Shown here: positions 3,973 to 35,308 of the stretch, in pieces
Position numbering within the stretch: position 1 is the first letter of the stretch
Layout: each line of letters opens with the position of its first letter
Assembly: GCA_903921455.1 (NCBI GenBank)
Contig: CAIXPZ010000317.1
Span: 1-35,407, forward strand
DNA length: 35,407 bases
Source: an uncultured Verrucomicrobia subdivision 3 bacterium
Lineage (GTDB): Bacteria > Verrucomicrobiota > Verrucomicrobiae > Limisphaerales > UBA11358
Direction: 5' to 3'
The notes under the pieces: model-generated
Database searches by the model: none
Told to the model about the DNA's origin: nothing
What the model saw: only the letters and a program-made list of their open reading frames with translations
Position numbers and translations under genes: made by a program

Positions 3973-4985
3973 TCAAAAAAATTCTTTTCGCCTGGCTGCT
4001 TGCGACGTCGCTCGTGCAAGCCGCACCGGTGAAACTCATCCTGGACACCGACATGGGCAACGATGTGGATGATCTCATGGCCTTGTGCATGATTCACACC
4101 TTGGAAGCACATGGCGCGGTGGAACTGCTCGCCGTGACCATCACCAAGGATAATCCGCAGGCGGCGGCCTTTGTGGATGCGGTGAATACTTTCTACGGAC
4201 AACCGGATGTCCCCATCGGCGTTGTGACCAATGGCGCGACGCGAGATGCCGGCAAGTTCCTCTTGCTGGCCGATGCTAGGAACGAAGACAGCTCGCTGCG
4301 TTATCCCCACAAACTCAAGAGCGGCAAAGATGCCCCAGAAGCGGTCAGCTTGATTCGCAAGCTGCTTGCCGCACAACCGGACGACAGCGTCACGCTGGTG
4401 GGGACGGGCTTCTTCACCAATTGGCGACGCTTGCTGGAATCGCCGCCGGACGATGCCTCACCGCTCAATGGACACGATCTCATCGCGAAGAAAGTGAAGT
4501 TGCTTTCAGTCATGGCAGGGGCCTTCCAGACAGTAAACTGGGATTCGCGGTATCGCGAATACAACGTGGTCACTGATTTGCCCGCTGCACAGGCCGTGGC
4601 GAAAAGCTGGCCAACGCCGATGGTTTGGAGCGGCTTCGAGATTGGCGCAGCGGTGATGTTTCCCCACGAGGTGATTGAGCATGACTTCGAATATGTGAAG
4701 CATCATCCGCTTAAGGAAGCCTATTATCTTTATTGTCCGCCACCACAAGACCGCCCCATGTGGGATCCGACCGCACTATTGTATGCGGTTTATCCCGACC
4801 GCGGCTATTTTGACCTTTCGCCACCCGGCACCGTCACGGTCGAGAACAACGGTGCCACTTGGTTTCGCCCGTCGAATGATGGCAAATGCCTCCATCGCTA
4901 CCTTGTGATGAACGCCGTTCAAGCCGCCCGTGTGCGCGAAGCCATCGTGCAGCTCTGCGTGACTCCACCCGCAAAAATGAAGTGA
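3969..4985 (+). CDS. Secreted nucleoside hydrolase (inosine-uridine preferring family)
   Basis: The 338-aa protein starts with a signal peptide (two Lys, then a hydrophobic stretch ending LVQAAP), so it is exported. The mature N-terminus carries LILDTDMGNDVDD, the calcium-binding Asp cluster that defines nucleoside hydrolases, which cleave the N-glycosidic bond of ribonucleosides to free base and ribose. The His and Asp expected near the C-terminus could not be assigned with confidence. The start codon overlaps the ribokinase stop. Together with the GRP transporter and ribokinase it forms a coherent unit: cleave nucleosides outside the cytoplasm, import the ribose, phosphorylate it. Base preference cannot be read from the sequence. 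Confidence 0.85.
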   Translation: MIKKILFAWLLATSLVQAAPVKLILDTDMGNDVDDLMALCMIHTLEAHGAVELLAVTITKDNPQAAAFVDAVNTFYGQPDVPIGVVTNGATRDAGKFLLLADARNEDSSLRYPHKLKSGKDAPEAVSLIRKLLAAQPDDSVTLVGTGFFTNWRRLLESPPDDASPLNGHDLIAKKVKLLSVMAGAFQTVNWDSRYREYNVVTDLPAAQAVAKSWPTPMVWSGFEIGAAVMFPHEVIEHDFEYVKHHPLKEAYYLYCPPPQDRPMWDPTALLYAVYPDRGYFDLSPPGTVTVENNGATWFRPSNDGKCLHRYLVMNAVQAARVREAIVQLCVTPPAKMK

Positions 4986-5142
4986 TGAACGAACATCCAA
5001 AGATTGTCGGTAGCCGTTCACCAAATGAAAGGGGGCAGAGATGACTGATATGTATCCATCTCGTGTAACGAGTGCATCGCAAAGGCAACGCTCCATTAGC
5101 CAGCTCTTCACATGCGTATACGAACAAAAAAAAAAATCGGCG

Positions 5143-7110
5143 ATGCTGGTGCAACTCGGTTGGTTGCTGCTCTTGTTCGTCGGCCTGCCGGCGCGTTGTG
5201 AAAAAATCTCCGGTTGGGTCGGGGCGCATCAGTTTGCGTTCGACGTGCGCTCTGTGCCCTCGACAGAAGTGTTCCCGGTTGCCGGAGTGACGGCGGAGTT
5301 CATCGCCATTACCGAGGTTTATCCCGATAATCCCAAAGCGGTTTCATATCACTATCTCGTTACTGCTCCCGGCCTCGCTCCGTTTGAGCGCTGCTACTCT
5401 GCCCGGGGGTTCGGACCGGTCGCCTACTTCTTGCGCGTCGCCCGACAACCGGTCGGCTCGGTAACGCTGACCAATCTCGGCGGCGGCACGCCACAAATTC
5501 TTGGCGTGCGCGCGGTGACTCGCGATGAACTGGCCCGTATCAAACGCGATGACAAGTTCACGCTCATGGGCACGGTGATTAATCCGAGGAATGCCATGAG
5601 CGAGGACGAACAAGTCAGGCGGATTGCTGAGAGGCTTGTCGCCGATCCAAAGCGGAACATTGGCCGGGCATTCTCCTACGAAATCTATTATGCCAACAGT
5701 AACACCAACGATGTGCGTCGACAGTTGGAGGCTGCCAGACAGTGGTCACTACAATACAAACTGCCAGTGCTGCTCGGCATGGTCTCGTGGTGGAACGGCA
5801 CGCCGCGCAACGTGCCAGACGGGCTGGGTGGCAAGTTTGGCGACCTTCAGTATCAGCAGGTATGCTATACCCCGGACAGCATTCACCCGGAAAACACGGA
5901 GTTGCGGAAGTTGCTCGGCGAGCGATACAACCCCCACTATTGCCTTTCGACACCGAATATTTGGAACAATACTCCATGGCTGACCTTGAACAGCACGGAA
6001 CTAAATGCCTATCGCGCCCGCCGAATGCGTGAAGCGGTGGACTTGTTGGCTGAAATCAGCCAGGGCGACACCGCGTGGATCGCCGGCATCTTTCTGGAGA
6101 ACGAGCCGCGTTACTGGGACACACAGTCAACCCAGGGAACGCCGCAATGGTGTGGCGAACGCTGGGCTGATTTCAATCCCTGCGTTATTGCCGCCGCCGC
6201 TCGGGACGGGGTGACATTGGATCCCGCCGATGGATTGTCGCTGGAGGAATTGACCTGGTTGCAAAAAAACGCCGGACGCTATTTTCAAGAGACGGTCAAC
6301 ATGTTCCGCGCGGCGCTGGCGGCCCGGGGGCTGCTTGATAAGTTTCCCATATACACCCACTCACTCCAGATTCCGATCTTGTTTCCCGGAGTGAAAATCA
6401 ACCGGACGCCATCAGACTGGGCCAGAGCAGTCGGGGCGCGCACCGGCATCGAAGGCATCTGGAGCCAACCCTCGGATTTCGATCGCGTGCGCGAATGGGG
6501 GCCGTGGTGCAATCTAAATCGCGAGGAGACCGATGGCAGTCCCATTGATACACACCTCTGGGATCTGCGCACGGCCTATGCCATGGGTGCCGAGTTGTTC
6601 AACAGCTATAACTGGCATCTGATCAAGAAAGACGCCTACTTCAACTACGCGCGCAATTTTGTGGCGGCGCTGCCGTCCGTCACGCTCCCGCCGGTTCGCG
6701 CCGAGCGGATAAACTCAAACACCATCACCCTCACGCCACCCGGCGGTCTGCAGGCTTTCACACAAATCATTGTTCCAGTGGAAACCATTCCCGGTCGTGC
6801 AGTCAAAGGCATGACGGTGGCATTGGCTGTTGACGGCGGCCCAAATCTAACGTGGTTCTCCGAACGCCAGCCGCTTCCAGCCGGTGGCCGCCGTCTGTTG
6901 ACGTTTGTTTTTCCCGCGCCAGCCGAGGTGCGTTGGTCGGACACAGGAACGATTCGCCTGCGCGCGTATGATGCGGGTGGCGCGGAGGTGCATAGGGCGG
7001 TGGCTTTTACCAGTGGCGCGGCGCAGGAGCTGCGCTTAAACTACGATTTGGAGCAGAGTCGCGCCTTGAGCCGGCTGCTGATGCAATGGAAACAAGCTGC
7101 TCCGCGATGA
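5143..7110 (+). CDS. Secreted TIM-barrel-like protein of unknown family, possible glycoside hydrolase
   Basis: I place the start at the ATG at 5143, not the in-frame ATG at 5041, because it sits directly before a hydrophobic signal peptide (LVQLGWLLLLFVGLPARC) and the intervening 34 residues include a run of 11 A bases and no domain. The mature protein is about 635 aa. The N-terminal 110 residues look like a beta-sandwich. The middle contains repeated Trp/Tyr-rich strands, including VSWWNGTPRNVP and WIAGIFLENEPRYWDT (about 312-327), where the ENEP pattern resembles the acid/base motif of clan GH-A barrels. The last 110 residues are a beta domain. I do not recognise a named family. It lies among secreted sugar-degrading enzymes and probably acts on a plant or algal glycan, which is inference. 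Confidence 0.6.
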   Translation: MLVQLGWLLLLFVGLPARCEKISGWVGAHQFAFDVRSVPSTEVFPVAGVTAEFIAITEVYPDNPKAVSYHYLVTAPGLAPFERCYSARGFGPVAYFLRVARQPVGSVTLTNLGGGTPQILGVRAVTRDELARIKRDDKFTLMGTVINPRNAMSEDEQVRRIAERLVADPKRNIGRAFSYEIYYANSNTNDVRRQLEAARQWSLQYKLPVLLGMVSWWNGTPRNVPDGLGGKFGDLQYQQVCYTPDSIHPENTELRKLLGERYNPHYCLSTPNIWNNTPWLTLNSTELNAYRARRMREAVDLLAEISQGDTAWIAGIFLENEPRYWDTQSTQGTPQWCGERWADFNPCVIAAAARDGVTLDPADGLSLEELTWLQKNAGRYFQETVNMFRAALAARGLLDKFPIYTHSLQIPILFPGVKINRTPSDWARAVGARTGIEGIWSQPSDFDRVREWGPWCNLNREETDGSPIDTHLWDLRTAYAMGAELFNSYNWHLIKKDAYFNYARNFVAALPSVTLPPVRAERINSNTITLTPPGGLQAFTQIIVPVETIPGRAVKGMTVALAVDGGPNLTWFSERQPLPAGGRRLLTFVFPAPAEVRWSDTGTIRLRAYDAGGAEVHRAVAFTSGAAQELRLNYDLEQSRALSRLLMQWKQAAPR

Positions 7111-21864: not shown

Positions 21865-22260
21865 TCACGGATTCATCCGCCGCGCGCTAAAACCAAGATC
21901 TACGATCAATTGAGGAATACATATAGAGTTTAGAGCACGGGCGTCGTTTAATTCCCCAGTCATGTCATCCGTTAGCATACGATAACCATGCTTGGTTGAA
22001 GCCCGGGCAGCTATCTTTATGAATGGAATGGTTCGTCGCGCCAACTCATTCCGCAACCAGCGTAGCGACGGTCGGGAAGATTTCTCCAATAAAATGCCCG
22101 TCAAATTAGGGGATAATTGAATTTTTGATGGTGCAATCGGAAGCAGATAGACGAAAGTCCGTGACGGCAGATGAACCAATTTGGAAAAATCCTTGGACAA
22201 ATTGGCGACCCAACTGCTGTCGAAATTGATTACAAAAAACGCTTCCACCAAGGAAACCAT
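21865..22260 (-). CDS. Hypothetical protein at the end of the mobilisation operon
   Basis: This 131-aa frame begins 31 bases inside the 3' end of the coupling-protein gene, in the same direction. I do not recognise it. It has a hydrophobic N-terminal third (SLVEAFFVINF, TFVYLLPIAPSKI) and a basic middle (SLRWLRNELARRTIPFIKIAARA). The overlap and shared strand suggest the last gene of the TraK-to-T4CP operon, but there is no clear ribosome-binding site, so it may be non-coding. Confidence 0.4.
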   Translation of the reverse strand: MVSLVEAFFVINFDSSWVANLSKDFSKLVHLPSRTFVYLLPIAPSKIQLSPNLTGILLEKSSRPSLRWLRNELARRTIPFIKIAARASTKHGYRMLTDDMTGELNDARALNSICIPQLIVDLGFSARRMNP

Positions 22261-23723
22261 TTTGAAATTGTGCCATCGGCTTCAAGCGGCGGTAAAACCG
22301 TTTTGTGGAAGCCTTTCTCACAGTGAACGAGAACGCACTGGTGTTTTCTCAAGTTACGCAATTCGTAAGGTTTGATTTTATGCTCATCCACGTTTGTGTA
22401 TGAGCGCGTCAACATTCCGCCAGAATAGCCAGAGGTTCGTTGTCGGACTTTTCGTTGACCAAGAAAGTCCGCGCTTTCAACTGCGCCCGCTTCGTCTGCC
22501 CCTTTGAAAATCATCCGATTGCGAAGATTCAGCGTCAGCACTTGTGCCTTTTCCTCGCCGAGCGGCGGAATGAATGACGTTGACGACTGTGCGGCGGCAA
22601 CCAGCGTCGCCTTCGCTTCGCGCATCACGTCAATGCAGTTGTAATCGCTCATGCCGTCCTCGCTGGCTGTGACGAAGCGTTGCGCTTCGTCTGCCCACAG
22701 AATGAGCAGATTGTCGGTGGCGCGTTCTTCCTTTGGCCGGTCGAAGCGTCTCAAAACGTGCGCGTAAAAAAGCATTTTGAGAAACGTGTTTATGTAGCGT
22801 CGTTCCATCTGAAATTTCTGCGGCATCGCCACGCAGATTATTTTGCCACGATCAATTTCCTTGAAATCGAAACTGTTTTTGGCGTCGCCAAAAACCTCAA
22901 TGACATCGGGCGTCAAAAAGAATTGGAGATAATTGGCGATGGTCTCTTTCACGCCGCCCATCTGCTCGGCGGGCTGTCCCCGATAGCGTTCGGAAAAATG
23001 TTTGATGAGGGCTTTGTCGCGGTCAGTAGGATAATCCGTCTGCATCTCTCCCAACACCTCATTCATCGTATTGTCATCGAGAAGAAAATCACGGACATTG
23101 AACAGGGTCGCTTCCATCCCCAATCGCGTCAACAGTTCCAGCGCCAGACCGATATGCGTTTGTGCCTGGCTCTTGAAAAAGGATTGTTCGGCGCGCTGTC
23201 CCAAGCTCGTCACCGTATCCACTACAAACTTTGCGTAGGTGGACGGCGGAATTGTCCGGTCAGAAAGCAGATTGAATGTGTATGCCGGTTTCCATTTCTC
23301 CGGCGGGTTGTCCGGCCTGACTTGCAACAGAATTAAATCGTCTTGGCGATTAAACTTCGCTGCCATTTCCACGAGCGTTTCCCAATAGACGCCCTTGTCG
23401 TCAATGCACAGGCCGCCCCAATTGGGATCGTTTTGAAAAACCTGAAAGAGCAGTTGATTGATGCCGGAGCGGGTTTTGCCGGAGCCGGTGTCGCCGGTAA
23501 TGAGCCAGCCTCGGCAAAAATCTTCGCGTGTCCACGCAAAGCCCTTCAGCCGAACGATAAATTTACTTTTTGCAATTTTACCACCCTTCGCCGTGGCCGC
23601 GTAAGCAGCAATGCCAGCGAAGATCGCCGCCACAATCCACGAGGCCGGCGCGGGCAGAAAAAGGAGTGCTCCGGTCGCCATCAGCAAAGACAGGCCGGTC
23701 GTGATGTAATTTATCCAGCGCAT
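22230..23723 (-). CDS. Type IV coupling protein (VirD4/TraD-like DNA transfer ATPase)
   Basis: The 497-aa protein has two N-terminal membrane helices (about residues 5-42) and a cytoplasmic motor domain. Walker A is GDTGSGKT (77-84), and Walker B lies in NLLILWADEAQRFV. The last third has the conserved VAAAQSSTSFIPPLGEEKAQ region and a TraM-recognition-like segment. Such proteins link the relaxase-DNA complex to a type IV secretion channel and pump the DNA strand. It starts 2 bases after the TraM-like gene. The partner relaxase is encoded divergently at 25482. No secretion-channel genes are present in the window. Confidence 0.88.
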   Translation of the reverse strand: MRWINYITTGLSLLMATGALLFLPAPASWIVAAIFAGIAAYAATAKGGKIAKSKFIVRLKGFAWTREDFCRGWLITGDTGSGKTRSGINQLLFQVFQNDPNWGGLCIDDKGVYWETLVEMAAKFNRQDDLILLQVRPDNPPEKWKPAYTFNLLSDRTIPPSTYAKFVVDTVTSLGQRAEQSFFKSQAQTHIGLALELLTRLGMEATLFNVRDFLLDDNTMNEVLGEMQTDYPTDRDKALIKHFSERYRGQPAEQMGGVKETIANYLQFFLTPDVIEVFGDAKNSFDFKEIDRGKIICVAMPQKFQMERRYINTFLKMLFYAHVLRRFDRPKEERATDNLLILWADEAQRFVTASEDGMSDYNCIDVMREAKATLVAAAQSSTSFIPPLGEEKAQVLTLNLRNRMIFKGADEAGAVESADFLGQRKVRQRTSGYSGGMLTRSYTNVDEHKIKPYELRNLRKHQCVLVHCEKGFHKTVLPPLEADGTISKWFPWWKRFL

Positions 23724-23725
23724 AA

Positions 23726-24085
23726 TCAGAGTAAATATTTTCCAACCAGGATTCCGGCCAAGAGCGAAGCGATTGCCACGCAGAAAAAAGCCACGGCACG
23801 CCCGGCGGAAAGCTGCTGGGTGATTTGGGGAACGCTCCGAATTTCCTGTTTCAACTCCCGCGCCTCCTTTGAAAATTCCTTGGTCAATTGCGTAAGCGTT
23901 TGCAGCGAGACACGAACCGTCACCAACTGGATGGAATCCATGTCGGGCGGAATTTCAATTTTGACGTTCTGGAAAAATATCTTGAGCAATTCCAGCATCT
24001 GCAAAACGGAGTCATCATCCCGAATCCCGTGCTTGCGCCGCCATTCGGAAACCGCCTCGTTGAAGCTGTGCTTTTCCTCGTTCAC
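23726..24085 (-). CDS. TraM-like conjugal transfer protein with C-terminal membrane anchor
   Basis: I prefer the GTG at 24085 over the ATG at 24160: it gives a 4-base GTGA overlap with the preceding TraL-like gene instead of an 79-base overlap. The 119-aa product begins NEEKHSFNEAVSEWRRKHGI and has RDDDSVLQMLELLKIFF (about 21-37). A coiled-coil-like central part (LTQLTKEFSKEARELKQEI) follows, and one C-terminal hydrophobic helix (AVAFFCVAIASLLAGILVG). The KHGI...DD..LQ..E pattern and the C-terminal anchor recall TraM of the IncP plasmid RP4. Gene order after TraK- and TraL-like genes supports this. Assignment is from memory of the family, not from alignment. Confidence 0.6.
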   Translation of the reverse strand: MNEEKHSFNEAVSEWRRKHGIRDDDSVLQMLELLKIFFQNVKIEIPPDMDSIQLVTVRVSLQTLTQLTKEFSKEARELKQEIRSVPQITQQLSAGRAVAFFCVAIASLLAGILVGKYLL

Positions 24086-24828
24086 AAAAGTGAGTCGCTG
24101 GATTTCGTTTCCTTTTTCGACTTTTGAATTTTCGGCGGTGGTGGCAGTAACATCCCGCACACAGATTCCAGTTGGCTATAAAGCAGGTGCTGCCAGTTTA
24201 GCAGCCGTTGCCGGTTGAAGAAATCGAAGGCAGGATTATTGATGCCAGCGGAAACGGTCAGGTCGTGCCGGTTCAAATCGGCTACGATCCAATCGTAAAG
24301 TTTCGGCATGATGATTTCTTTGGCATCCAGTTCCTCCATCAGTCGTATCCTTGTGGCGCTGCGCTCGTAGTTGTCAAACCGTTCCGACAACGCCTCATTT
24401 TTGACAACCAGGTATCGGGCATTGTGATTGAGCCGGTCGGTGATGTTGCGAATCTGCTCCAAGCTGTCGGTTTCGTGATTCACCGGCATGATGAGATTCA
24501 AGGATGCGCCAACCTGTTTGAGCAGATCGAAGATTCGCACTTCGTCAAAATAATCGAGAAAAATGTCGGTCGAGGCCGCGCGGCAATCCATGACAACCAA
24601 ATCCGTTTTGTCCAGCATGGCGAAAACTGAATCAATTTCGGTCGGTTCTGCGATATTGAGAAACAGGGCTTCGGGATGGAAACGCTTCAGCGTCGAGTTT
24701 TCGTTGTCGGTATCAACGGCGATGTGGGCGATGTCCTTGTCTTTAAGATACTGGACGAAATTGACAGCGAAGAAACTTTTGCCGACGCCGCCCTTGCCGT
24801 TGATGACAGCATTGAATTGTTTTTGCAT
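24082..24828 (-). CDS. TraL-like ParA/MinD-type ATPase
   Basis: The 248-aa protein opens with a deviant Walker A motif, NGKGGVGKSFFAVNFVQYL (about residues 10-28). It has the ParA-type switch Asp in HIAVDTDNENSTLKRF and the strand DLVVMDCRAAST. Such ATPases dimerise on ATP and position DNA or protein complexes. In IncP-type transfer regions the TraL member sits between TraK and TraM, as seen here. The C-terminus is basic and low-complexity (PPPPKIQKSKKETK). It lies 9 bases after the TraK-like gene. A plasmid-partition ParA role is the alternative, but no ParB or parS is visible. Confidence 0.78.
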   Translation of the reverse strand: MQKQFNAVINGKGGVGKSFFAVNFVQYLKDKDIAHIAVDTDNENSTLKRFHPEALFLNIAEPTEIDSVFAMLDKTDLVVMDCRAASTDIFLDYFDEVRIFDLLKQVGASLNLIMPVNHETDSLEQIRNITDRLNHNARYLVVKNEALSERFDNYERSATRIRLMEELDAKEIIMPKLYDWIVADLNRHDLTVSAGINNPAFDFFNRQRLLNWQHLLYSQLESVCGMLLPPPPKIQKSKKETKSSDSLL

Positions 24829-24837
24829 AATTTTTGG

Positions 24838-25245
24838 TTAAAGGTTTTTTGAATCGGCGATGCGTGGTCCCGGCTTGCGCCGCGACCACGGGCCGGGAAA
24901 ACGCTCCCGCTGTTCCCGCAAGGTCGCCCCAATTTTTTCAGGTGGCGGTAGCACCGGAATAGGTTTTGACGGTGAATTTTTTGGCGGGCGTGATTTATGA
25001 GGTCGGTCGGATTCCTCGCCGATCACGTCGCGGCAAAATCGGTAAATGGTGTTAAGAGAAACAATTATTTTCTCCTCTGCCAAAATCAGCCGGATGTCGT
25101 CGTAGGCAGCATTGCGCGCGCGAAGCTCTTTAATTTGGGATTTGAAAGGAAGCAACAACGCCCGTTTGGGTGACAACTTGGGGTAGCCACAAACCACTCC
25201 CGCCAGTCGAGTTTTTATTTCGTCGGATGGACTTTGCTCGCTCAT
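24838..25245 (-). CDS. TraK-like oriT-binding protein
   Basis: The start is fixed at ATG 25245 by a good Shine-Dalgarno sequence (GGAGG, 5 bases upstream), rare in this window; the longer frame to 25302 lacks one. The 135-aa basic protein has a helical DNA-binding-like core, ELRARNAAYDDIRLILAEEK and VSLNTIYRFCRDVIG (about residues 30-70). The tail is rich in Pro, Lys and Arg. This layout matches TraK of IncP plasmids, which binds near oriT, wraps it and stimulates relaxase action. It is the first gene of the minus-strand mobilisation operon and sits next to the putative oriT. Confidence 0.6.
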   Translation of the reverse strand: MSEQSPSDEIKTRLAGVVCGYPKLSPKRALLLPFKSQIKELRARNAAYDDIRLILAEEKIIVSLNTIYRFCRDVIGEESDRPHKSRPPKNSPSKPIPVLPPPEKIGATLREQRERFPGPWSRRKPGPRIADSKNL

Positions 25246-25284
25246 AAAACCTCCGAAAATACGTCGAAAGAAGCTGGCGAATTG

Positions 25285-25325
25285 TTGGCAAGAATTTGGC
25301 AAACAAATCGAAAATCTTTGGCAAA
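25285..25325. repeat. Three phased TTGGCAA-type direct repeats
   Basis: TTGGCA occurs at 25285, 25296 and 25318, each followed by A. The start-to-start spacings of 11 and 22 bases place all three on the same face of the helix. This is the arrangement expected for multiple binding sites of a TraK-like or other accessory protein. They lie 40 bases upstream of the TraK-like start codon, so an autoregulatory operator is equally possible. Confidence 0.55.
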
Positions 25326-25434
25326 AAGGCGATAAGCAAAACCTCTAACGAAGGTTAGACGTAAGGCGTGCCATGAAAAAAGCCACTTCAGCGTTGAACT
25401 CATGCCTCCATGTAAACCGATTTCCGGCAATCAG

Positions 25435-25456
25435 GTTGTGATGATTTCATCACAAC
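25435..25456. promoter_or_regulatory. Perfect 10-bp inverted repeat upstream of the relaxase gene
   Basis: GTTGTGATGA (25435-25444) and TCATCACAAC (25447-25456) are exact inverse complements separated by TT. The element ends 26 bases before the relaxase start. It may be the relaxase-binding hairpin of oriT or an operator controlling the relaxase gene. Confidence 0.6.
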
Positions 25457-25481
25457 TTTTGTGGACGGGATGGGCTAAAAA

Positions 25482-28307
25482 GTGGGTGTGCTTTCAACCA
25501 AGACACAATGCAACCTGAACAATGCAGAAAAATACTTCAAAGAACATCTGCAACTCGGCGATTATTACAGTCAGGAAAACATCGTGTCCGGCGAATGGAC
25601 TGGAATCGGGGCTGAAACGCTTGGGCTTGCAGGCAGGGTGAAACAGGATCAATTTTTGAAACTCTGCCACAACCAGAATCCGAACACCGGCGAATTGCTG
25701 ACACAGCGGATGAAAACCACCCGTTGGGATTCGGACAAAATGGCAGAAGTTGCCAATCGCCGGATTTTTTATGACTTCACGTTTTCACCGCCAAAATCAG
25801 TTTCCATTCAGGCTTTGATTGCCAATGATAAACGGCTCTTGGATGCACACAGTCGCGCCGTGCGGATTGCCGTCAATGAATTGCAGCACTTCGCCGGGAC
25901 ACAAGTGCATCGGGGAATGGACAAATCGGAGCGGCTCACCGGAAACGTCGTCTGCGCCACGTTCCGCCATGACACCTCCCGCGCGCTTGATCCCCACTTG
26001 CACACGCATTGCGTCATGTTCAACGCCACGTTTGATGCAACCGAAAATCGTTGGAAGGCGTTATCCAATTACGAAATGCTTCAGGTGCGGAAGTTTGCCG
26101 AAAATGTCTATTACCACGAATTCGCCCGCGACTTGCGCCAATTCGGCTATGAGATTGAAAACAATCCACGCGGAGATTTTGAAATCAAAGGCGTGTCAAG
26201 TGAACTGCAATCGCGTTTCTCCAAACGCCACAAAGAAATTGATGCCAGCATCGAACGGATGCTGAAAGAGAAGCCGGAACTGGCAAATGGCAATCTGAAG
26301 GAACTGCGCTCACAAATCGCCCAAGCGGAGCGCAGCCGGAAAATTGCAGGAATTGCCCTGCCTGAACTTCAACGCCTCTGGGACAGCCAGCTTACGGGCG
26401 AAGAAAGGCAATCCCTGCGCGCGCTGGCTCGCCAGTCAAAGGCGGCGATTCAATCGCCGTCCGTCACGGCGCAAGCCGCAGTCCAGTGGGCGGAAGACCA
26501 CTTGTTTGACCGCCGTTCGGTCGTGCGTGAAAACGAAGTTTGGAGCGCGGCTTTGGAGCGCGGGCGCGGGTCAGAATTGACGGTTCATGGCATCAAGGCG
26601 GCAGGGCAGGAACGCGATTACATTCGCAACGAACACGCGCCGTCAAAAATCACGACGCGCGAGATTTTAAGCTGCGAATGGGAAATCGTCTGCCTCGCCC
26701 GCGACGGGCGGGGCAAGTTCACGGAGTTCAATCCGCATCACAAAATCGCCACTGACCTCATGCCGGATCAGCGCGCCGCCGCCGAATTGATTTTGGGGTC
26801 GCGTGATTTCGTCACGCTGTTCTGTGGCGGCGCGGGAACGGGGAAAAGCCACACGCTGCGGGAAATCGGCAAAGGCTTGAAATCTGCCGGTCAGGTTTCT
26901 TACGTCATCGCGCCGCAGCGCCAGCAAGCTCTCGACTTGAAAAAGAGTTTTGCCGACACCCAAACCGTTTCTGAATTTCTGACGAAGCGGCAGATGATGC
27001 CTGGCGCGGTGGTGATTGTGGACGAAGCCGGACAAATTGGCGGAAAGCAGATGCGCGAACTTTTGAGTTTCGTGCAAGCGAATGGTGGCCGCGTCATTCT
27101 GTCCGGCGACACGCGCCAGCATGGAGCGGTCGAAGCCTCGGACGCCCTGCGCGCCATCGAGCGGTATGCCGGTCTGGAAGCGGCGCGGCTGACAAAGATT
27201 CGGCGGCAAAACCCAAAGGCGGGAGAAACGAAGTCCGAACGGAAACGCATCAAGCAATACCGCGCAGCGGTTCGCAAGGCACAGTCCGGCCAATACGCTG
27301 AATCATTCGACCGTTTGGATCGGCTCGGCGCAATTGTCGAATGCCGCACCACCGACGAGCAACGCGAACGGCTGGTTGCCGATTATCTGACGCTGGCGGA
27401 AAGGAAAAAGTCCACCGTGATTGTTTCGCAGACTTGGGCAGAGATTCGGGAAATCAATGAGCGGATTCGGATTGGACTGCGAAGGGCGGGGTTGATTGAC
27501 AAAGCCGATTCGATGGTGACGGCGTATGAGCGATTGGATTTGACGGATGCCCAAAAGCGCGACCAGCGGTTTTATCCGGCCAATGCGGTGATTGTGTTCA
27601 ATCGCGAGACGGGGGATTTTGCCAAAGGCGAAGTCGGCAAACTGTTGGTCGCAACGCCCACACATTTGCTGGTCAAGGGGGAAAAGAAAGAGCAGAAAAT
27701 CCCCTTCAAGCTGTTGAACCGGCTCACAGTCTGCCAGCCGGTTGAAATGCCGCTCGCCAAGGGCGATCAATTGCAACTCAAGACCAATGCGCCGTCGCTT
27801 GGCGGCAAAGAACTGATTAACGGCGAACTGGTGACGGTCAAAGCCGTCAATTCAAACGGGCGCATTGAGTTGAAAGACGGGCGAGTCCTGCCAGAAAAAT
27901 ATCGGGAGTTCGTCCGTGGTTACGCGATTACGTCTTATGGCTCACAAGGCAAAACCGTCGAACACGTTCTGTTTTCCGATTCGTCCGTTAAGGCCGCGAC
28001 GAATAATCAGCAATGGCTCGTCACGATTTCACGCGGAACGCGGGCGGTCAAAATCTTCACCCAGGACAAAGCGCAGTTGCGCGAAAATGTCGGTCGCTTG
28101 GGCGACCGTGAACTGGCGATTGAATTTGCGAAGCAAGATTCAGCGCAGGCGCGGCGCGTGCCGCCGCCGGTTCGCAAATATATCGCCGGGCTGATTCAAA
28201 GCCGACGTTCGGAAACGATTCAACAAAAGATTGAGAACATTGATTTATGGAAACACAAACAAACTCCCCGAATGACGCCGCAACGGACACACGGACAAAA
28301 AATCTGA
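25482..28307 (+). CDS. MobF-family relaxase-helicase (TrwC/TraI type)
   Basis: The 941-aa protein starts at GTG 25482 or GTG 25488; the second gives an MLS N-terminus like TrwC. Numbering here uses 25482. The relaxase domain (1-290) has the candidate catalytic tyrosines Tyr18 and Tyr28/29 (EKYF, GDYY), the conserved GEWTGIGAETLGLAG, the YDFTFSPPKSVSI strand, and the metal-binding triad His172, His174 and His176 (DPHLHTH). The SF1 RecD2-like helicase part has Walker A GGAGTGKS (449-456), VIVDEAGQIGG, SGDTRQHGAVEA, and C-terminal motif VI-like YAITSYGSQGKT. It nicks oriT, stays bound to the 5' end and unwinds the strand for transfer. Length is near TrwC (966 aa), so it looks intact. Confidence 0.93.
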   Translation: MGVLSTKTQCNLNNAEKYFKEHLQLGDYYSQENIVSGEWTGIGAETLGLAGRVKQDQFLKLCHNQNPNTGELLTQRMKTTRWDSDKMAEVANRRIFYDFTFSPPKSVSIQALIANDKRLLDAHSRAVRIAVNELQHFAGTQVHRGMDKSERLTGNVVCATFRHDTSRALDPHLHTHCVMFNATFDATENRWKALSNYEMLQVRKFAENVYYHEFARDLRQFGYEIENNPRGDFEIKGVSSELQSRFSKRHKEIDASIERMLKEKPELANGNLKELRSQIAQAERSRKIAGIALPELQRLWDSQLTGEERQSLRALARQSKAAIQSPSVTAQAAVQWAEDHLFDRRSVVRENEVWSAALERGRGSELTVHGIKAAGQERDYIRNEHAPSKITTREILSCEWEIVCLARDGRGKFTEFNPHHKIATDLMPDQRAAAELILGSRDFVTLFCGGAGTGKSHTLREIGKGLKSAGQVSYVIAPQRQQALDLKKSFADTQTVSEFLTKRQMMPGAVVIVDEAGQIGGKQMRELLSFVQANGGRVILSGDTRQHGAVEASDALRAIERYAGLEAARLTKIRRQNPKAGETKSERKRIKQYRAAVRKAQSGQYAESFDRLDRLGAIVECRTTDEQRERLVADYLTLAERKKSTVIVSQTWAEIREINERIRIGLRRAGLIDKADSMVTAYERLDLTDAQKRDQRFYPANAVIVFNRETGDFAKGEVGKLLVATPTHLLVKGEKKEQKIPFKLLNRLTVCQPVEMPLAKGDQLQLKTNAPSLGGKELINGELVTVKAVNSNGRIELKDGRVLPEKYREFVRGYAITSYGSQGKTVEHVLFSDSSVKAATNNQQWLVTISRGTRAVKIFTQDKAQLRENVGRLGDRELAIEFAKQDSAQARRVPPPVRKYIAGLIQSRRSETIQQKIENIDLWKHKQTPRMTPQRTHGQKI

Positions 28308-28618
28308 CGTGCTGGCGCACGGCCACAAGTCCGCAATGCTTGCGGGTGGAAACCACCAACGAGGTTCACCTGTTTCCATACGGCTATTTTCAGCACGCAA
28401 AATTCATCCGGCAAAGCGGCAAGGACATTGTGCAAATCCAGTTTCAAGACCGAATCATCATGGTCAAAGGAAAAGGTTTAGAGCCGCTGTGCGATGCTCT
28501 GGAACGGCTCGCCGTGGAACGAATCAGAGTGCGTCCAGAAAAATACGGGGCAATTGTCAAAAACGAAGGGATTATTGAGGACATTGAAATCACCAAGGCG
28601 AGCGGGACAACAAATTGA
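28247..28618 (+). CDS. Hypothetical protein overlapping the relaxase 3' end
   Basis: The 123-aa frame starts 61 bases inside the relaxase gene, in another frame, and runs 311 bases beyond it. The product has a polar N-terminus, then a beta-rich core (EVHLFPYGYFQHAKFI, DIVQIQFQDRIIMVKGKGLE) and a helix with DALERLAVERIRV. I recognise no family. The overlap suggests translational coupling with the relaxase, and it is probably a small accessory protein of the mobile module. Confidence 0.6.
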   Translation: METQTNSPNDAATDTRTKNLTCWRTATSPQCLRVETTNEVHLFPYGYFQHAKFIRQSGKDIVQIQFQDRIIMVKGKGLEPLCDALERLAVERIRVRPEKYGAIVKNEGIIEDIEITKASGTTN

Positions 28619-28736: not shown

Positions 28737-29468
28737 TCATTGCATAATTAAAATTTCCGGGCGCAACCTGCCGACGAATTGATTTGGCAATCTTTGATCG
28801 AGCGAACCAGACACCATTGATTCCATTGCCACATGGCCGTCGCAGAAGGTGACATTGGCTTTTTTAGCATGACGGAAATGGCCGTTGGGATAACTAATTG
28901 TGGTATCCACATAATACCATTCTTCAAGCATTGGATTGATGTGGGAAGCGGGTGCTTGAAAGTCGTTCACCTGGGCGGCGTCCGCAAACAAAGCCGTTTC
29001 TGTGGGTTGTTTGATCCGATTGGAATTTATCGGCGTCTGGTTGGGGCCGGTGGAGAGATAATTATTGTAACCGTAGCTGAACACCACGTTGGTGGCTTTT
29101 AATTTGAATTGCGCCATCGTGGAGTCGAGTGCCGGGCAAAGCCGGACATCGCTGCCATTGAGGTAGGGAAATAATTTTCCAACCGACAAGTCAAACGGTC
29201 GCTGGCCTTCAGATCCCGATCCAATCCAGCCAAACCAATAAGTCTGCCCACCGTTGGTCGGACCATATAAATAATTGAAACAATTCCCGCTGTTATCGCC
29301 CCAGTATAACTGTGTGGCGATGCCAAGCTGGCGCAGGTTGCTCGTGCATTGGGCGCGCCAGGCGGACGCTTTGGCCTTGGCCAGTGCCGGCAACAACATC
29401 GCCGCAAGAATCGCAATGATGGCAATCACGACGAGCAGCTCAATCAACGTGAATGCGCGTTGCTTCAT
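28737..29468 (-). CDS. Prepilin-like protein with N-terminal methylation motif and H-x9-DG tail
   Basis: The 243-aa protein has a class III prepilin leader, with [20 protein letters not shown] following a short basic start (MKQRA), as in type II secretion or type IV pilus pseudopilins. The globular part carries [18 protein letters not shown] and the C-terminal [13 protein letters not shown], the H-x9-DG signature of the DUF1559-like proteins abundant in Verrucomicrobiota, Planctomycetota and Lentisphaerota. It should be cleaved by prepilin peptidase and stay in the envelope. Its ATG overlaps the stop of the BtuF-like gene by 4 bases, so it is the last gene of the cobalamin operon. Its function there is unknown. 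Confidence 0.9.
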
Positions 29469-30580
29469 GGTTTTTCACTGCGGATGTGTTCGACTGCTTT
29501 CGCCAAACACGCAGGACAAAGGCAATCTGCGCCGGGCGCGGTGGATGGCGGGAGCGGCGGAAAATCATCGCACCAGCAACTGCCAGCTATGCACTCAAAC
29601 GGCTGGCCACATTCGGGACAGGCTTTGACTCGAACCGGACGCGGTTCGAGTCCGCCGGTTTGGATTTGCCGAAACGCGTTGTCCGGCCCGTTCCAATCGA
29701 ACAGTTCCGGGTGAATCAAATGCGCGAGCAGTTCTACACCATCCACGACGCGCGGGCCGGGCCGGGCGAAATAGGCGTTGGCGTTCACGGCGAAAACGCG
29801 GTTGTTGCGGACGGCGGGCAAATCGCTCCAACCGGGCTGCTGCAAAAGCAAATTCGCCTGTTCCACGGCCTGTTCCACGCTGAAACCGCAGGGCGACACG
29901 ATCAGGATTTCCGGCGCCCACGCCGCGATGTCCTTCCATGTGGTGCGGACGGAATCAGTTTTCTTGCAGCCGAGCGCATCTTGGCCACCGGCGAGTTCGA
30001 TCATTTCCGGCACCCAATGGCCGCAGCAGTAATACGGATCAATCCATTCGAGACAGAAAACTTTCGGACAGCGCGGCGCTTTTTTCGCGAGGTTGGCGAC
30101 GCTTTGCAAACGCACACGGGCGGCAGCAACAAGTTGTTCGGCCTTGGCTAGACGGCCGGTGGCCGCGCCGAGTTCGCAGAGGTTGTCGAAAATGGCCTCG
30201 ATGCAATGCGGCGTGAACCAGAGGATTTGCGGTTTGGACGGCAGCGCCTTCAGCGCCCGTGCGATTTCGCCGCCGGACGGCGCGCAGACCTGGCACAGCG
30301 CCTGGGTCAGAATGTGCGTTGGTGCGAGCCGCTCGATGGCTGGCTGGTCCACCGCGTAAAGATCGCCGCCGCTGCCGATGCATTCGGCAACCGCCACGTC
30401 AATTTCCTTCAGAGTCATCGTCTCCACCGGCAACGCGCAGCGGACGACAACCAGTTTTGATTTGGCGTCCGCCGGAAAATCGCACTCGTGCGAGATGCCG
30501 ACGACCTGCTCGCCGAGGCCGAGGGCATACGCCATCTCGGTAGCGGCGGGCAGAAAGGAAACAATGCGTAAAGTGTTCAT
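29465..30580 (-). CDS. BtuF-like cobalamin-binding protein without signal peptide, fused to a Cys-rich CWC domain
   Basis: The start at ATG 30580 ([20 protein letters not shown]) overlaps the DUF1289 stop by 4 bases and begins directly with the first strand of the periplasmic-binding fold, so no signal peptide exists. Residues 1-270 match BtuF/FepB-type cobalamin-binding proteins: [38 protein letters not shown], and the inter-lobe helix with [20 protein letters not shown]. The last 60 residues contain [19 protein letters not shown] and CLCPACL, the cysteine-rich CWC motif, which could bind a metal or iron-sulfur centre. It probably acts in the cytoplasm on corrinoids, unlike classical BtuF. 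The total length is 371 aa. Confidence 0.85.
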
Positions 30581-30774
30581 GGGATTTGTGCAAAGGTCAG
30601 ATGGCATCCTGCAACCGCCCGTCTTGCCTGTGCGGCGGCGATGACACGAATCTTTTCTGCGTCGGTCAAGTGTCTCCAGTTGGCGATTTCGGACAATGAC
30701 CGATGGCAGCCGGTGCAGACAGTTTTGTCTTCCGACATTTGACAGGCGTCAACACATGGAGATTTGATGGTCAT
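30577..30774 (-). CDS. DUF1289-family small cysteine protein
   Basis: The 65-aa protein has four Cys in its N-terminal half (SPCVDACQMSEDKTVCTGC), then RSLSEIANWRHLTDAEKIRV, the defining pattern of DUF1289. The Cys set may bind a metal or iron-sulfur cluster; no reaction is known to me. Its start overlaps the preceding PP-loop gene stop and its stop overlaps the BtuF-like start, both by 4 bases, so it is translationally coupled within the cobalamin operon. Confidence 0.85.
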   Translation of the reverse strand: MTIKSPCVDACQMSEDKTVCTGCHRSLSEIANWRHLTDAEKIRVIAAAQARRAVAGCHLTFAQIP

Positions 30775-31442
30775 GGCACGGCGAGTTCCAACTCGTGAAT
30801 TTCCATGTAGGCCAGCAAATCTTTGGTGCGTTTTGAATGGGAGCGAATGCGGATCGGACGCTTGAAGAACGGCCCGTCCGTGACGAGCGTATGATACTCA
30901 CCTTCCTCGCCACAGAGATCGAGGCCGGTCCGGTCGCGAACGCCGCGCAGGTCGGCAATGGCGGCGTCATCCAACTCACGGCCAACCCAGCCCGCCGCGA
31001 GCCAGCGGGTATTGACGCATGAGAAAACCACCTTGAATCCGCTGGCTAGTTGTTGTCGGAGCAAGGTGAGCCGGTCACGACCCCACAACGGCGTATGCAC
31101 CTTCATTCCCACCGGGCGGCTGCGCTCGCGAATCCAATTCGGACTTCCGTTCACTTCCGCGATGTCGCCGGTGATGACCGTGCAGATGCCCATTTCGTCC
31201 CGCAGCTTGCCCAACGCGGTTTCGTAACTTTTCTCGAACGGTTCGGTGATGGACAAAATATAATGCGGCAGTGCCAATGCCTGCGCCTGCATTTTGATGA
31301 AGCCCGGCGGATGCGCCAAAAAATTCGGATTCAACGGCGCGAACGTGACGAGGCAGCAAACGTCATAACCGTCCCGCCCGGCTTCGTAAAGTGCCAGTGA
31401 ACAATCCTTGCCTCCAGTCCAGAGCATCGCTGCGCTTTGCAT
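30771..31442 (-). CDS. DUF71/Dph6-like PP-loop ATPase, copy B
   Basis: The 223-aa protein begins with the PP-loop MLWTGGKDCSLALYEA (adenylate-forming amidotransferase type). It ends with the DUF71/COG2102 active-site motif GEEGEYHTLVTDGPFF (about 187-202). Archaeal and eukaryotic members make diphthamide; a bacterial subgroup has been predicted from genome context to act in B12 salvage. The location under a cobalamin riboswitch fits that subgroup. The loop has TGGKDCS where copy A has the canonical SGGKDS, so the two copies have diverged. The start is the only ATG near the motif. The stop overlaps the DUF1289 start by 4 bases. Confidence 0.88.
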   Translation of the reverse strand: MQSAAMLWTGGKDCSLALYEAGRDGYDVCCLVTFAPLNPNFLAHPPGFIKMQAQALALPHYILSITEPFEKSYETALGKLRDEMGICTVITGDIAEVNGSPNWIRERSRPVGMKVHTPLWGRDRLTLLRQQLASGFKVVFSCVNTRWLAAGWVGRELDDAAIADLRGVRDRTGLDLCGEEGEYHTLVTDGPFFKRPIRIRSHSKRTKDLLAYMEIHELELAVP

Positions 31443-31469
31443 GGGATAAGTGATTGCTCTACGGACACA

Positions 31470-31997
31470 TCAGGCGACACCCGCTGCGGGTTCGCGCAAG
31501 CGGACAAAACGATTTTCCGCGAAGGCCAATGCACCGAAGAGCAGCGCCGAATAAATCAAATCGCCCAGCAGCATATTTCGGAAGAAGGGAATGGCGGCAA
31601 CATAACAATCCACCAATCCGGCGGTCGTTTTTGGATACAGATTGTCAATCGCCCAAACGCCGAAATTCGTCAGCACGAAAAATAACACCGCGCTCGCGAC
31701 GGCGGCGAACGCAATGCGTTGAACCGAGCGACGGTGGCGCACCCAAAAACCAAGGCAGACCGTAAGTGCGAAGCTCCCATAAACCACCGGCGTGATCGCG
31801 TAAAATCCGAACACAAGGTCGCTCAAAAACAATCCGGCCAGCGGCACGAGGAACGCAGCACGCTTGCTGGAAAATTGCGCGCCGCCGAACAGGGCGATTG
31901 CGGCAATGGGCGTGAAGTTAGGCGGATGCGGAATCAATCGTGAGGCGGCAGCCGCCAGTATCATTCCTGCAAGCATGGTGAATCGAGGTTTGTTCAT
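31470..31997 (-). CDS. DUF6580-like integral membrane protein, resembling an ECF-type substrate-binding subunit
   Basis: The 175-aa protein has about five or six membrane helices. It opens with LAGMILAAAASRLIPHPPNF and TPIAAIALFGGAQF, a pattern I associate with DUF6580, whose layout resembles S-components of energy-coupling-factor vitamin transporters. Later helices include VLFFVLTNFGVWAIDNLYP and NMLLGDLIYSALLFGALAFA. It lies between the two PP-loop genes in the cobalamin operon, so a role in moving a corrinoid or its precursor across the membrane is reasonable. No ECF ATPase or T-subunit is in the window, so this remains inference. Confidence 0.72.
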   Translation of the reverse strand: MNKPRFTMLAGMILAAAASRLIPHPPNFTPIAAIALFGGAQFSSKRAAFLVPLAGLFLSDLVFGFYAITPVVYGSFALTVCLGFWVRHRRSVQRIAFAAVASAVLFFVLTNFGVWAIDNLYPKTTAGLVDCYVAAIPFFRNMLLGDLIYSALLFGALAFAENRFVRLREPAAGVA

Positions 31998-32034
31998 ATT
32001 TTTTCTTTCTGGTTTGGTGGTTGGTTAATTTGTT

Positions 32035-32778
32035 TCAGTTTGTGTCGGGCAGCAAATCGCAAAACCAAAATCCTTTCGTGCCGCGCGGACTGGACGGGCA
32101 GACGTAGGACGAATTGGAATCGCCCGGATGCGTCACTTCGACCGGGCGATAAACTTTTTCACCGACCTTGAATCTCACCGGCTGTTTGAAAACCGGCCCG
32201 GCGAAGGCGAAGGAATGGAACTCGCCATTCTCGCCGCACACGTCAACCTCCGGCGGCAGCGTGGCGATGAAGTCCGCGTCAATGTTGCGGCCCACGGCGT
32301 CTTCGCCGAGATACGCATCATTCACGCAGCAGATGACCGAGCCGAAGCCGAGCGCAATGAATTCGCCGATCAATTTGCGCGAATCTATTTTCCACAGCGG
32401 GAAAATTCCGCGCATTCCGACCTTCGCCAGATTTTCCTCGCGCCAGCGTTTGAGGTCTTCAAGAAAAATGTCACCAAAGACACAGCCAGTGACACCGCGC
32501 GCCTTGTTCGCGAGCAGGCACGCGGACATTTTTTGCTGATACTCCTCGTTGGAACTGCGCTGGCTGACAAACACTTTCTCCAGCGGCAGGCCGATGGCTT
32601 CGGCCTGCGCGTCGAGCAATTCCAGACGCACGCCGTGCATGGAGACGCGCTGGAAATGTTCGTTGCATGTCGTGAGCAGCGAGACGACTTCGTAACGCTC
32701 GTCGCGCAAAATGCGGTTCAGCGCGAGCGCGGAATCTTTGCCGCCGCTCCAGCAGAAAATGATTTTTTCACGGTTCAT
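32035..32778 (-). CDS. DUF71/Dph6-like PP-loop ATPase, copy A
   Basis: The start is ATG 32778, one base after the stop of the secreted-protein gene; the long upstream frame extension is that gene's shadow. The 247-aa product has the canonical PP-loop IIFCWSGGKDSALALNRIL at the N-terminus. The middle has GVTGCVFGDIFLEDLKRWRE, and the C-terminal active-site motif is GENGEFHSFAFAGPVF. It should activate a carboxylate with ATP and transfer ammonia, as Dph6 does. In this context a corrinoid side chain is a plausible substrate, in line with the published prediction that some DUF71 proteins work in B12 salvage. About 25 residues longer than copy B, mainly at the C-terminus. Confidence 0.88.
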   Translation of the reverse strand: MNREKIIFCWSGGKDSALALNRILRDERYEVVSLLTTCNEHFQRVSMHGVRLELLDAQAEAIGLPLEKVFVSQRSSNEEYQQKMSACLLANKARGVTGCVFGDIFLEDLKRWREENLAKVGMRGIFPLWKIDSRKLIGEFIALGFGSVICCVNDAYLGEDAVGRNIDADFIATLPPEVDVCGENGEFHSFAFAGPVFKQPVRFKVGEKVYRPVEVTHPGDSNSSYVCPSSPRGTKGFWFCDLLPDTN

Positions 32779-32779
32779 A

Positions 32780-33787
32780 TCAGGGGCGTTCGGCGCGAAC
32801 GCGATAAAAGCCTTTGTCCGCAGGTGTGTTCGTGTCCGGTAAAAATAGATTTGTTCCGTTGCCGCTGGCGGCAGCGGAAACGTCCGTCCACGAAACGAAA
32901 TTTGTCGTGCGTTCGAGCGTGTATAGCCAGTTGCTCCGGCTGATGAATTGCGCCTGCCAGAGGCCGTTGCTGAACGCGCCGGTAAGATTTTGGACCGGCG
33001 GCGGCGGCAGGGTGACGACAAAATTGTCCACCGACCCATGCGCCAGTAGGGAACCGGCGTAGATGACGCCGCCGTAATCATTTGTATCCTGTCCCGCCTG
33101 GCTGTAGCTGCTAATGGAAATGGCATCCACACGAAAATCCGTGAAGTTGGTTCCCAAACTGGCTACGCAATTGGAAACGAACATCTCGTTGTTGCGCGTT
33201 ATGGTCATCACCAGATTGGAGTTGCTCGCCGAATAAGTCAGGTTCACCCGATAAATGTCGTTGGTCGTCAAACTGTCTGGATCATATCCGCCGGATGAAT
33301 AATTGAAACCGGTCGAATCAATCATGGTCGCCGTGAGTGATGGCCCGTATATCCACGCGCCACCGGGATCGGGGAAAAAGCTGAATTCAGCCAGGTCTTG
33401 GGCGCTATAACCCGTGCCGCGCAGGAAACCGGACTGTGAAGCTTCCGCCAGATTGAGAAATCCCACTGACAGCGGAAACGTGCTGGGCATTTCTGGATCA
33501 AGACCGGCGACAAAATCATTCAAGCGCAGGTCAAACGCGACGCTGAAGTCGTCATCGCGGGCAAGAATCGTGCCGAGCGGATGGTAAAAATAACTGTTGC
33601 TCTGCGAGGAATCCCAAGTGACGGCGAGATTTTGATTCGTCGAATCCCACTGAAACAGATTGGTGTCGCCGAAAACCTGCCAGCCGTCCTGAGCCGGGTT
33701 ATTGGTGAAATTTTCGGTGATGGTGGTTGCGTGAACGGTGGACAGGACGAACAGGCTGGCAAACGCCAGCGAACGGATTTTTTTCAT
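32780..33787 (-). CDS. Secreted beta-rich protein, first gene of the cobalamin-riboswitch operon
   Basis: The start is ATG 33787 (MKKIRSLAFASLFVLSTVHA), a clear signal peptide with cleavage near VHA-TTITENF; the open frame upstream is riboswitch leader. The 335-aa protein is predicted by eye to be all beta: DGWQVFGDTNLFQWD, FSVAFDLRLNDFVAG and VNLTYSASNSNLVMTITRN look like a jelly-roll domain (about 25-255). The tail (about 265-335; WLYTLERTTNFVSWTDV, GFYRVRAERP) is the Verrucomicrobia-style C-terminal module also seen in the gene ending at 1743. It is placed where a B12 receptor would be expected. Corrinoid capture is a hypothesis only, as no known B12-binding motif is visible. Confidence 0.82.
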   Translation of the reverse strand: MKKIRSLAFASLFVLSTVHATTITENFTNNPAQDGWQVFGDTNLFQWDSTNQNLAVTWDSSQSNSYFYHPLGTILARDDDFSVAFDLRLNDFVAGLDPEMPSTFPLSVGFLNLAEASQSGFLRGTGYSAQDLAEFSFFPDPGGAWIYGPSLTATMIDSTGFNYSSGGYDPDSLTTNDIYRVNLTYSASNSNLVMTITRNNEMFVSNCVASLGTNFTDFRVDAISISSYSQAGQDTNDYGGVIYAGSLLAHGSVDNFVVTLPPPPVQNLTGAFSNGLWQAQFISRSNWLYTLERTTNFVSWTDVSAAASGNGTNLFLPDTNTPADKGFYRVRAERP

Positions 33788-33863
33788 GGCTGATCTTTCA
33801 ATTTTGTTCCGCAAAAAAATGCAGAACGGTTTTAGTTGAGAGACCAGCGCGAAGTCTGAAAAT

Positions 33864-33902
33864 AAAAAAACCTCCAGACTCCGGCAAAACGGGGAATGAA
33901 GG
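33864..33902 (-). terminator. Candidate intrinsic terminator in the cobalamin leader
   Basis: On the minus strand CCTTCA (33902-33897) can pair with TGGAGG (33876-33871), with an inner CCG/CGG pairing, directly followed by seven T bases (33870-33864). It lies between the riboswitch and the first start codon. An alternative 8-bp hairpin using GGAGTCTG and CAGACTTC (33882-33851) would compete with it. Two further hairpins (33970-33990 and 33915-33938) lie closer to the aptamer. Transcription attenuation by B12 is the likely mode. Confidence 0.45.
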
Positions 33903-34004
33903 CATCCAACGAATCCTGACGAAAAACAGTTCGTCAGGCTGGCCTCATCCTTCTCATTGACGGAGAAGTGACTCCGAAAAAATCGGAGTCCGACGAGCGC
34001 AATC

Positions 34005-34170
34005 AAACCGGTATCCTGACTTGGGCCTCAATCCTCACTCCCGCCTTCCCGAACTTTCGTTCAGTGGCATTGGGAGTTTGTAGCCGTTACAGTGGCGCAA
34101 CCGTCCCGGATTCTCACCGGGTTCCCTGACATTTGACTGCATTCAAAAGCGAACACTTGTTCGCTGGTTT
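34005..34170 (-). ncRNA. Cobalamin (AdoCbl-type) riboswitch
   Basis: On the minus strand the leader contains the conserved core GGGAACCCGGTGAGAATCC, then GGGACGGTTGCGCCACTGTA (about 34135-34092), and the closing GTCAGGATACCGG (about 34021-34009). These are the hallmark segments of the B12 riboswitch. The closing P1 helix can form between AAACC (34170-34166) and GGTTT (34009-34005). It controls the minus-strand operon starting at 33787 and should switch it off when cobalamin is plentiful. Confidence 0.95.
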
Positions 34171-34184
34171 CAAAGAGCGGACAA

Positions 34185-34213
34185 GTTTTATGATGCAAAC
34201 GAAATTTTGGCAA
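34185..34213 (-). promoter_or_regulatory. Probable promoter of the cobalamin operon
   Basis: TTGCCA (34213-34208) and TAAAAC (34190-34185) on the minus strand are separated by 17 bases, resembling a housekeeping sigma promoter. The expected transcription start near 34178 lies just before the first riboswitch helix. Confidence 0.5.
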
Positions 34214-34980: not shown

Positions 34981-35057
34981 GCTCCCGTAGCTCAAATGGA
35001 TCAGAGCGGCCGTTTCCTAAATGGCAAATCCCGGTTCGATTCCGGGCGGGAGCACCA
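34981..35057 (+). tRNA. tRNA-Arg(CCT)
   Basis: A full cloverleaf can be drawn by hand. The acceptor GCTCCCG (34981-34987) pairs with CGGGAGC (35047-35053). The D stem is GCTC/GAGC. The anticodon stem GCCGT/ATGGC encloses loop TTCCTAA, giving anticodon CCT at 35016-35018. The T stem CCCGG/CCGGG encloses TTCGATT. The discriminator is A and CCA is encoded (35055-35057). It decodes AGG arginine codons. Its 5' half is duplicated in inverted orientation at 35267-35308. Confidence 0.96.
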
Positions 35058-35266: not shown

Positions 35267-35308
35267 ATTTAGGAAACGGCCGCTCTGATCCATTTGAGCT
35301 ACGGGAGC
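35267..35308 (-). repeat. Inverted 42-bp copy of the tRNA-Arg 5' half
   Basis: Read on the minus strand from 35308 to 35267, this segment is identical to bases 34981-35022 of tRNA-Arg(CCT). It covers the acceptor 5' strand, D arm and anticodon loop, and ends two bases into the 3' side of the anticodon stem, after which identity stops. The two copies are separated by 244 bases. It cannot form a functional tRNA. Confidence 0.92.

Follow-up and report, generated by a model that had tools for sequence, protein, structure and literature searches.

How might a bacterium acquire and process vitamin B12 with an operon that stands behind a cobalamin riboswitch and yet contains none of the customary transport genes? 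The textbook route for B12 runs through BtuB and BtuCD. The question is raised by a stretch of DNA of 35,407 nucleotides from an uncultured Verrucomicrobia subdivision 3 bacterium (contig CAIXPZ010000317.1; below, the window is this whole stretch), in which the minus-strand segment 34151-28737 holds, in order, a riboswitch and genes for a secreted beta-rich protein (SEC), a DUF71 PP-loop ATPase (DUF71-A), a DUF6580 membrane protein, a second DUF71 protein (DUF71-B), a DUF1289 protein, a BtuF-like protein and a prepilin-like protein (PIL). As an earlier note on this DNA had stated, neither BtuB (the TonB-dependent receptor), BtuC or BtuD nor any Cbi/Cob enzyme is among the seven. Our observations support assignment of the operon to B12, and with moderate confidence we favor the explanation that it is a B12-regulated operon for corrinoid acquisition and processing, assembled from non-standard parts and working by a mechanism, described below, whose biochemical steps, and with them the ligands of the individual proteins, are all inferred.

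The riboswitch itself is clear. The aptamer (RF00174; positions 33989 to 34151) matched over the full length of the model with 87 bits (E 2.4e-20), compared with a gathering score of 31.5 bits. The 201 bases between aptamer and first gene (33788 to 33988), which we presume to be the expression platform, form a structured leader, with strong folding measured for 33788-34000 (z -6.95); a search of the leader for terminators gave a single terminator-like match, no better than in shuffled sequence. By analogy, the operon would be repressed by B12. Successive gene junctions measured +1, +37, +27, -4, -4 and -4 bases, in agreement with the four 4-base overlaps or 1-base gaps noted earlier, and the seven genes are probably co-expressed. 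Pfam scores confirmed the families that had been listed for these same-strand genes, SEC excepted, for which no Pfam match was found at E 0.1. DUF1289 (30577 to 30774; 65.0 bits) is a Cys-containing protein of 65 amino acids; it and the CWC stretch are the putative iron-sulfur or metal proteins of the earlier note.

The first and last genes specify envelope proteins. SEC (32780 to 33787) begins with a signal sequence, judged by eye, and combines a concanavalin/L-type-lectin-like domain with a C-terminal beta domain; searches of PDB sequences with SEC and with the secreted proteins of two relatives gave no useful match. PIL (28737 to 29468) has the N-terminal cleavage and methylation motif of type IV prepilin-like proteins (N_methyl 35.5 bits, TIGR02532 31.7 bits), a DUF1559-type start and an H-X9-DG end. 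Both had earlier been treated as extras. To the contrary, they proved to be the most conserved part of what the B12 riboswitches of this bacterium's order control. We found 105 riboswitches in 97 relatives by a scan with strict filters in which 23 candidates per genome were scored, so that some may be missed. Downstream DNA was fetched and profile-scored for 102 of them; the three without a region of their own are that of G001 (read in locus L050), the second in G005 and a second inside L097, and two further regions, L083 and L084, which were included on account of DUF71, have no detected riboswitch and stand outside the 102 sites. With cut-offs of 60 bits for secreted proteins and 100 bits for other classes, and with profiles built from matches in these same regions, 80 of the 102 sites preceded a secreted family (window-like T1, T2 or T3), 72 of them with PIL also; seven of the eight sites with a secreted family and no PIL are at a contig end. 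BtuB was present at 10 sites and the large subunit of ribonucleotide reductase at 9 (three examples annotated), and at three the contig runs out. At these cut-offs BtuB occurred together with a secreted family or PIL at none of the 102 sites. The ribonucleotide reductase sites are L091, L095, L097, L101, L103-L105, L121 and L154.

Counts by genome gave a similar picture. At E 1e-30 PIL was found in 72 of the 97 genomes, in a single copy in 71, and 66 of 73 PIL matches had a cobalamin riboswitch at most 7.5 kb upstream, as had 62 of the 70 stronger SEC matches (of 81 in all; the 11 omitted score 58-75 bits). In the nine genomes of BtuB type, SEC was absent from all nine with every candidate scored, and PIL was absent from all nine with every candidate scored in three; SEC/PIL occurred in 73 of the 88 other relatives (Fisher p 1.4e-6 for PIL, uncorrected for kinship). 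Loci L089 and L088 differ by a swap of BtuB for SEC-PIL beside the same cytosolic pair. Outside the order, 29 loci of the phylum (L185-L213, with 1.5-kb flanks) included BtuB in 7, PIL at 83-89 bits in two and strong SEC in none; SEC with PIL was found also in L006/L007 (two records that share length and coordinates and are possibly one contig twice) and in L011. DUF4465, the BtuJ domain, was not detected in the T2 and T3 examples L098 and L096, and L112 gave a weak PEP-CTERM match only. A CWC-type stretch rich in Cys lies ahead of the prepilin motif in G001 (L050) and in 23 or more of 64 PIL frames.

From these observations SEC and PIL are plausible candidates for a BtuB substitute, which at the envelope would serve the step of BtuB by capturing or drawing in corrinoids. 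An alternative, which we regard as possible and rather doubtful, is that the two belong to a response to B12 starvation, in which an adhesin or glycan-binding protein and a pilin attach the cell to B12 producers or to particles, and B12 is imported by other means. However, the mutual exclusion of these genes and BtuB behind the riboswitch is what would be predicted of a substitute, not of an addition.

The earlier note had called for a survey of this gene set downstream of B12 riboswitches, and the set does recur in other Verrucomicrobia. A scan of species genomes for DUF6580 yielded 42 loci, among which the gene order of the window was found in L003, L004 and L005 (SEC is in two frames in L003, and L004 and L005 are cut by the contig end). 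The contig of G010 (L002) has the same genes with PIL in second place, G057 (L082) has a window-type set without DUF71-B, and G074 (L084) has SEC, both DUF71 genes, DUF6580 and the BtuF-like gene. The set of two DUF71 genes plus DUF6580 is rare, being found among the 97 relatives in G010 and G074. More widely, DUF6580 accompanies DUF71 in records labelled Ignavibacteria and Leptospiraceae, and the BtuF-like gene in records labelled Acidobacteria. In L006/L007 one frame joins DUF71 and DUF6580; the PP-loop lies in another frame, and we rejected this as a clean fusion.

Because the set is rare in relatives and a TrwC relaxase lies near four of six copies (the window and, at 37-55% identity, L002, L003 and L084), the operon may be mobile cargo. 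Of the other two copies, L004 is too short to decide the matter, and the flank of L005 contains no relaxase. In the window the TrwC-type relaxase/helicase gene is on the plus strand (25482 to 28307; 257.9 bits), and on the other side of the operon is a tRNA-Arg(CCT) gene (34981-35057), the 5' half of which is repeated 244 bases away as a perfectly complementary inverted copy of 42 bases (35267-35308), perhaps a trace of integration. A second operon of SEC-PIL type is present in G010 and G074, and mobile elements may carry the cassette into hosts where an operon of this type is present beforehand. A search of a plasmid collection gave no near match. By extension, the inner genes could have been inserted between SEC and PIL as a mixed set, only some members of which respond to B12 or cooperate, and the presence of DUF71 matches in just 9 of 104 scored regions agrees with such a history. 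We consider this unlikely, however, as a description of the operon: DUF6580, the BtuF-like gene and DUF71 occur together without SEC or PIL in records labelled Zixibacteria, Blastopirellula, Gemmatimonadetes and Caulobacteraceae (L008, L010, L019 and L025), in L010 behind a riboswitch. The segment of the window directly downstream of the operon (22230-28618) encodes a TrwB-like coupling protein and a ParA-like ATPase in addition to the relaxase.

Returning to the corrinoid acquisition operon that we favor, the step at the inner membrane would fall to the DUF6580 protein (31470 to 31997; 208.2 bits), which, as a solitary S-component, would pass the corrinoid in place of BtuCD. An AlphaFold2 model of this protein (pLDDT 94.8) has six helices in a predicted S-component fold; the 19 top VIA-align rows are, by title, S-components or ECF/metal-transporter subunits, and the top structural match is BtuM. 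Searches of PDB sequences, with the single sequence or a profile, gave no useful match. The protein thus looks like an ECF S-component in the predicted model, as the earlier note had suggested, and is a candidate solitary B12 transporter. Residues R20, F106, N111 and W115 are invariant among 46 aligned proteins, among which no column reaches 90% Cys; H24 and D60 are conserved as well. DUF6580 genes occur in 87 of the 97 relatives; five score near 200 bits, every one beside DUF71. That the family serves B12 only is ruled out by paralogues, 16 of the 42 loci being unlinked. In L056 and L060 a DUF6580 paralogue follows the gene for MtaB, the methanol-corrinoid methyltransferase subunit, at about 23 bases. 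In L034 (labelled Uhrbacteria) an AdoCbl riboswitch, a gene of the alpha/alpha-toroid (squalene-cyclase) type and DUF6580 lie on one strand, and in L042 and L043 (Pelagibacteraceae) an AdoCbl-II riboswitch, a BtuB-like gene and DUF6580 stand in a row, a candidate B12 importer of SAR11.

In the cytosol, the BtuF-like protein (29465 to 30580; Peripla_BP_2, PF01497, 64.9 bits) would bind the incoming corrinoid, this trapping giving import its direction, and would pass it to the DUF71 enzymes. By inspection, its binding domain begins at residue 4-5 with no visible signal peptide, consistent with the earlier suggestion that the protein is kept inside the cell; of 20 BtuF-like rows of 150 bits or more, 15 likewise have the domain starting no more than 13 residues into the frame, three other frames being extended upstream and two lacking a pattern match. 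The C-terminal CWC-like stretch has the Cys pattern and scored 15.9 bits, under the cut-off of 24, and the match to solved BtuF is weak (22.8 bits). In G020 (L087 reversed, 4823-6685) a single open frame fuses a BtuF-like protein to a prepilin.

Both DUF71 proteins, DUF71-A (32035 to 32778; 130.6 bits; SGGKD and GENGEFH) and DUF71-B (30771 to 31442; 121.1 bits; TGGKD and GEEGEYH), have the PP-loop and the His replacing Glu188 (ENGEF/YH) that mark the DUF71-B12 subgroup, which bears out the B12 type proposed for the pair. The His signature was present in 30 of 31 compared rows and the PP-loop pattern in 24, some frames starting late and L002/L081 being one locus. DUF71 scored above cut-off in 9 of the 97 relatives and below it in 4 more; in seven of the nine a same-strand riboswitch precedes it, and of the remaining two, the G095 contig begins inside SEC and G074 has no detected riboswitch. 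Dph6, an amide ligase related to DUF71, forms an amide using ATP and ammonia, and for this reason our preferred guess, a tentative one, is that DUF71 re-amidates hydrolyzed corrinoid side chains; more generally, the enzymes may spend ATP on corrinoids that are damaged or foreign, re-amidating them or activating them in some other way. That DUF71-B12 instead replaces CbiZ, so that pseudo-B12 is cleaved to cobyric acid for remodelling, agrees with the B12-type signature and with what the accessible part of a 2012 paper proposed from co-occurrence with CbiB (PMC3541065), and is very improbable here, because that role needs CbiB to use cobyric acid and neither CbiB nor CbiZ was found in the 97 relatives (the window genome itself not among them) by searches that found matches in 8 and 5, respectively, of 14 control genomes. 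By kinship, the CbiZ-like route seems closed in the order of the window bacterium, and DUF71 probably does not split cobamides to release cobyric acid.

Several observations weigh against corrinoid acquisition and processing as we propose it. The best PDB match of the BtuF-like protein is titled an iron-binding protein. FecCD, the BtuC family, was matched in 53 of the 97 relatives, 47 of them above cut-off; only three reached 264-307 bits, and from score and partial coverage we judge the 50 weaker genomes (best 19-50 bits) to be cross-matches of another permease family. The structural aligner carries a caveat for helical models that applies to DUF6580. Against a DUF6580 family devoted to B12 alone, most DUF6580 genes of the other relatives score about 67-116 bits, none of these at a detected riboswitch (two fragments of about 30 bits, G037:C65 and G069:C45, are at riboswitch sites). 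Finally, pilin-like candidates numbered 12 to 135 per genome in a first look and at most 28 per genome were scored, so that PIL scoring covered only part of the candidates in many genomes. In its most extended form the proposal describes pilin-based B12 uptake throughout the order, in which riboswitch-controlled T1, T2 or T3 proteins would capture the corrinoid, a dedicated pilin-like subunit would bring it through the outer membrane in place of BtuB, DUF6580 would replace BtuCD, and the cytosolic BtuF-like protein would supply scavenged B12 to DUF71 amide ligases for repair; in that form we think it unlikely to be correct as a whole. Taken together, the earlier interpretation of the operon is partly supported.

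Most sampled cobalamin riboswitches of the order precede something other than BtuB/BtuCD, and few genomes have clear FecCD scores. Two families that lack a ligand, one secreted and lectin-like, the other a subfamily of the pilin-like proteins that abound in these genomes, gain a suggested ligand from the riboswitch; DUF6580 is a directly testable candidate B12 transporter; and the role of DUF71-B12, long an open question, is narrowed down by the absence of CbiB from relatives. Each part is known in kind, and the combination of genes, DUF6580 as a transporter candidate and the exclusivity toward BtuB are apparently new. Among the papers listed by literature searches, of sources that mostly lie outside the subscription journals, none was seen to describe the system, and there was no paper on DUF6580 or on DUF1289 with a cobalamin-binding protein.

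Comparison with known systems shows where the operon departs from them. BtuM of Thiobacillus denitrificans, a solitary B12 S-component, shares the S-component fold predicted for the window DUF6580 protein and is reported, in the part of the source available, to need no ECF module for its function (PMC6072759); its invariant cobalt-ligating Cys, however, is not conserved in DUF6580. BtuF, which is periplasmic, shares the PF01497 domain with the window BtuF-like protein, whereas the latter has no visible signal peptide and has the C-terminal CWC-like stretch. The window DUF71 copies resemble the DUF71-B12 subgroup (COG2102) in PP-loop and ENGEFH/EEGEYH signature, and that subgroup sits with B12-type genes, as far as the accessible text of PMC3541065 tells; unlike it, they are two in one operon, in a bacterium whose relatives are without CbiB, and their neighbors are a signal-less BtuF-like protein and DUF6580 rather than BtuCDF. 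The B12 operons of Bacteroides (BtuG, BtuH, BtuJ, BtuK), in the portion of PMC12751083 available, are alike in riboswitch control and in having several secreted surface proteins, which serve there in B12 capture. Yet the Bacteroides operons contain BtuB and BtuCD, while the window operon contains neither, and in it the secreted protein has a lectin-like fold and a prepilin is added.

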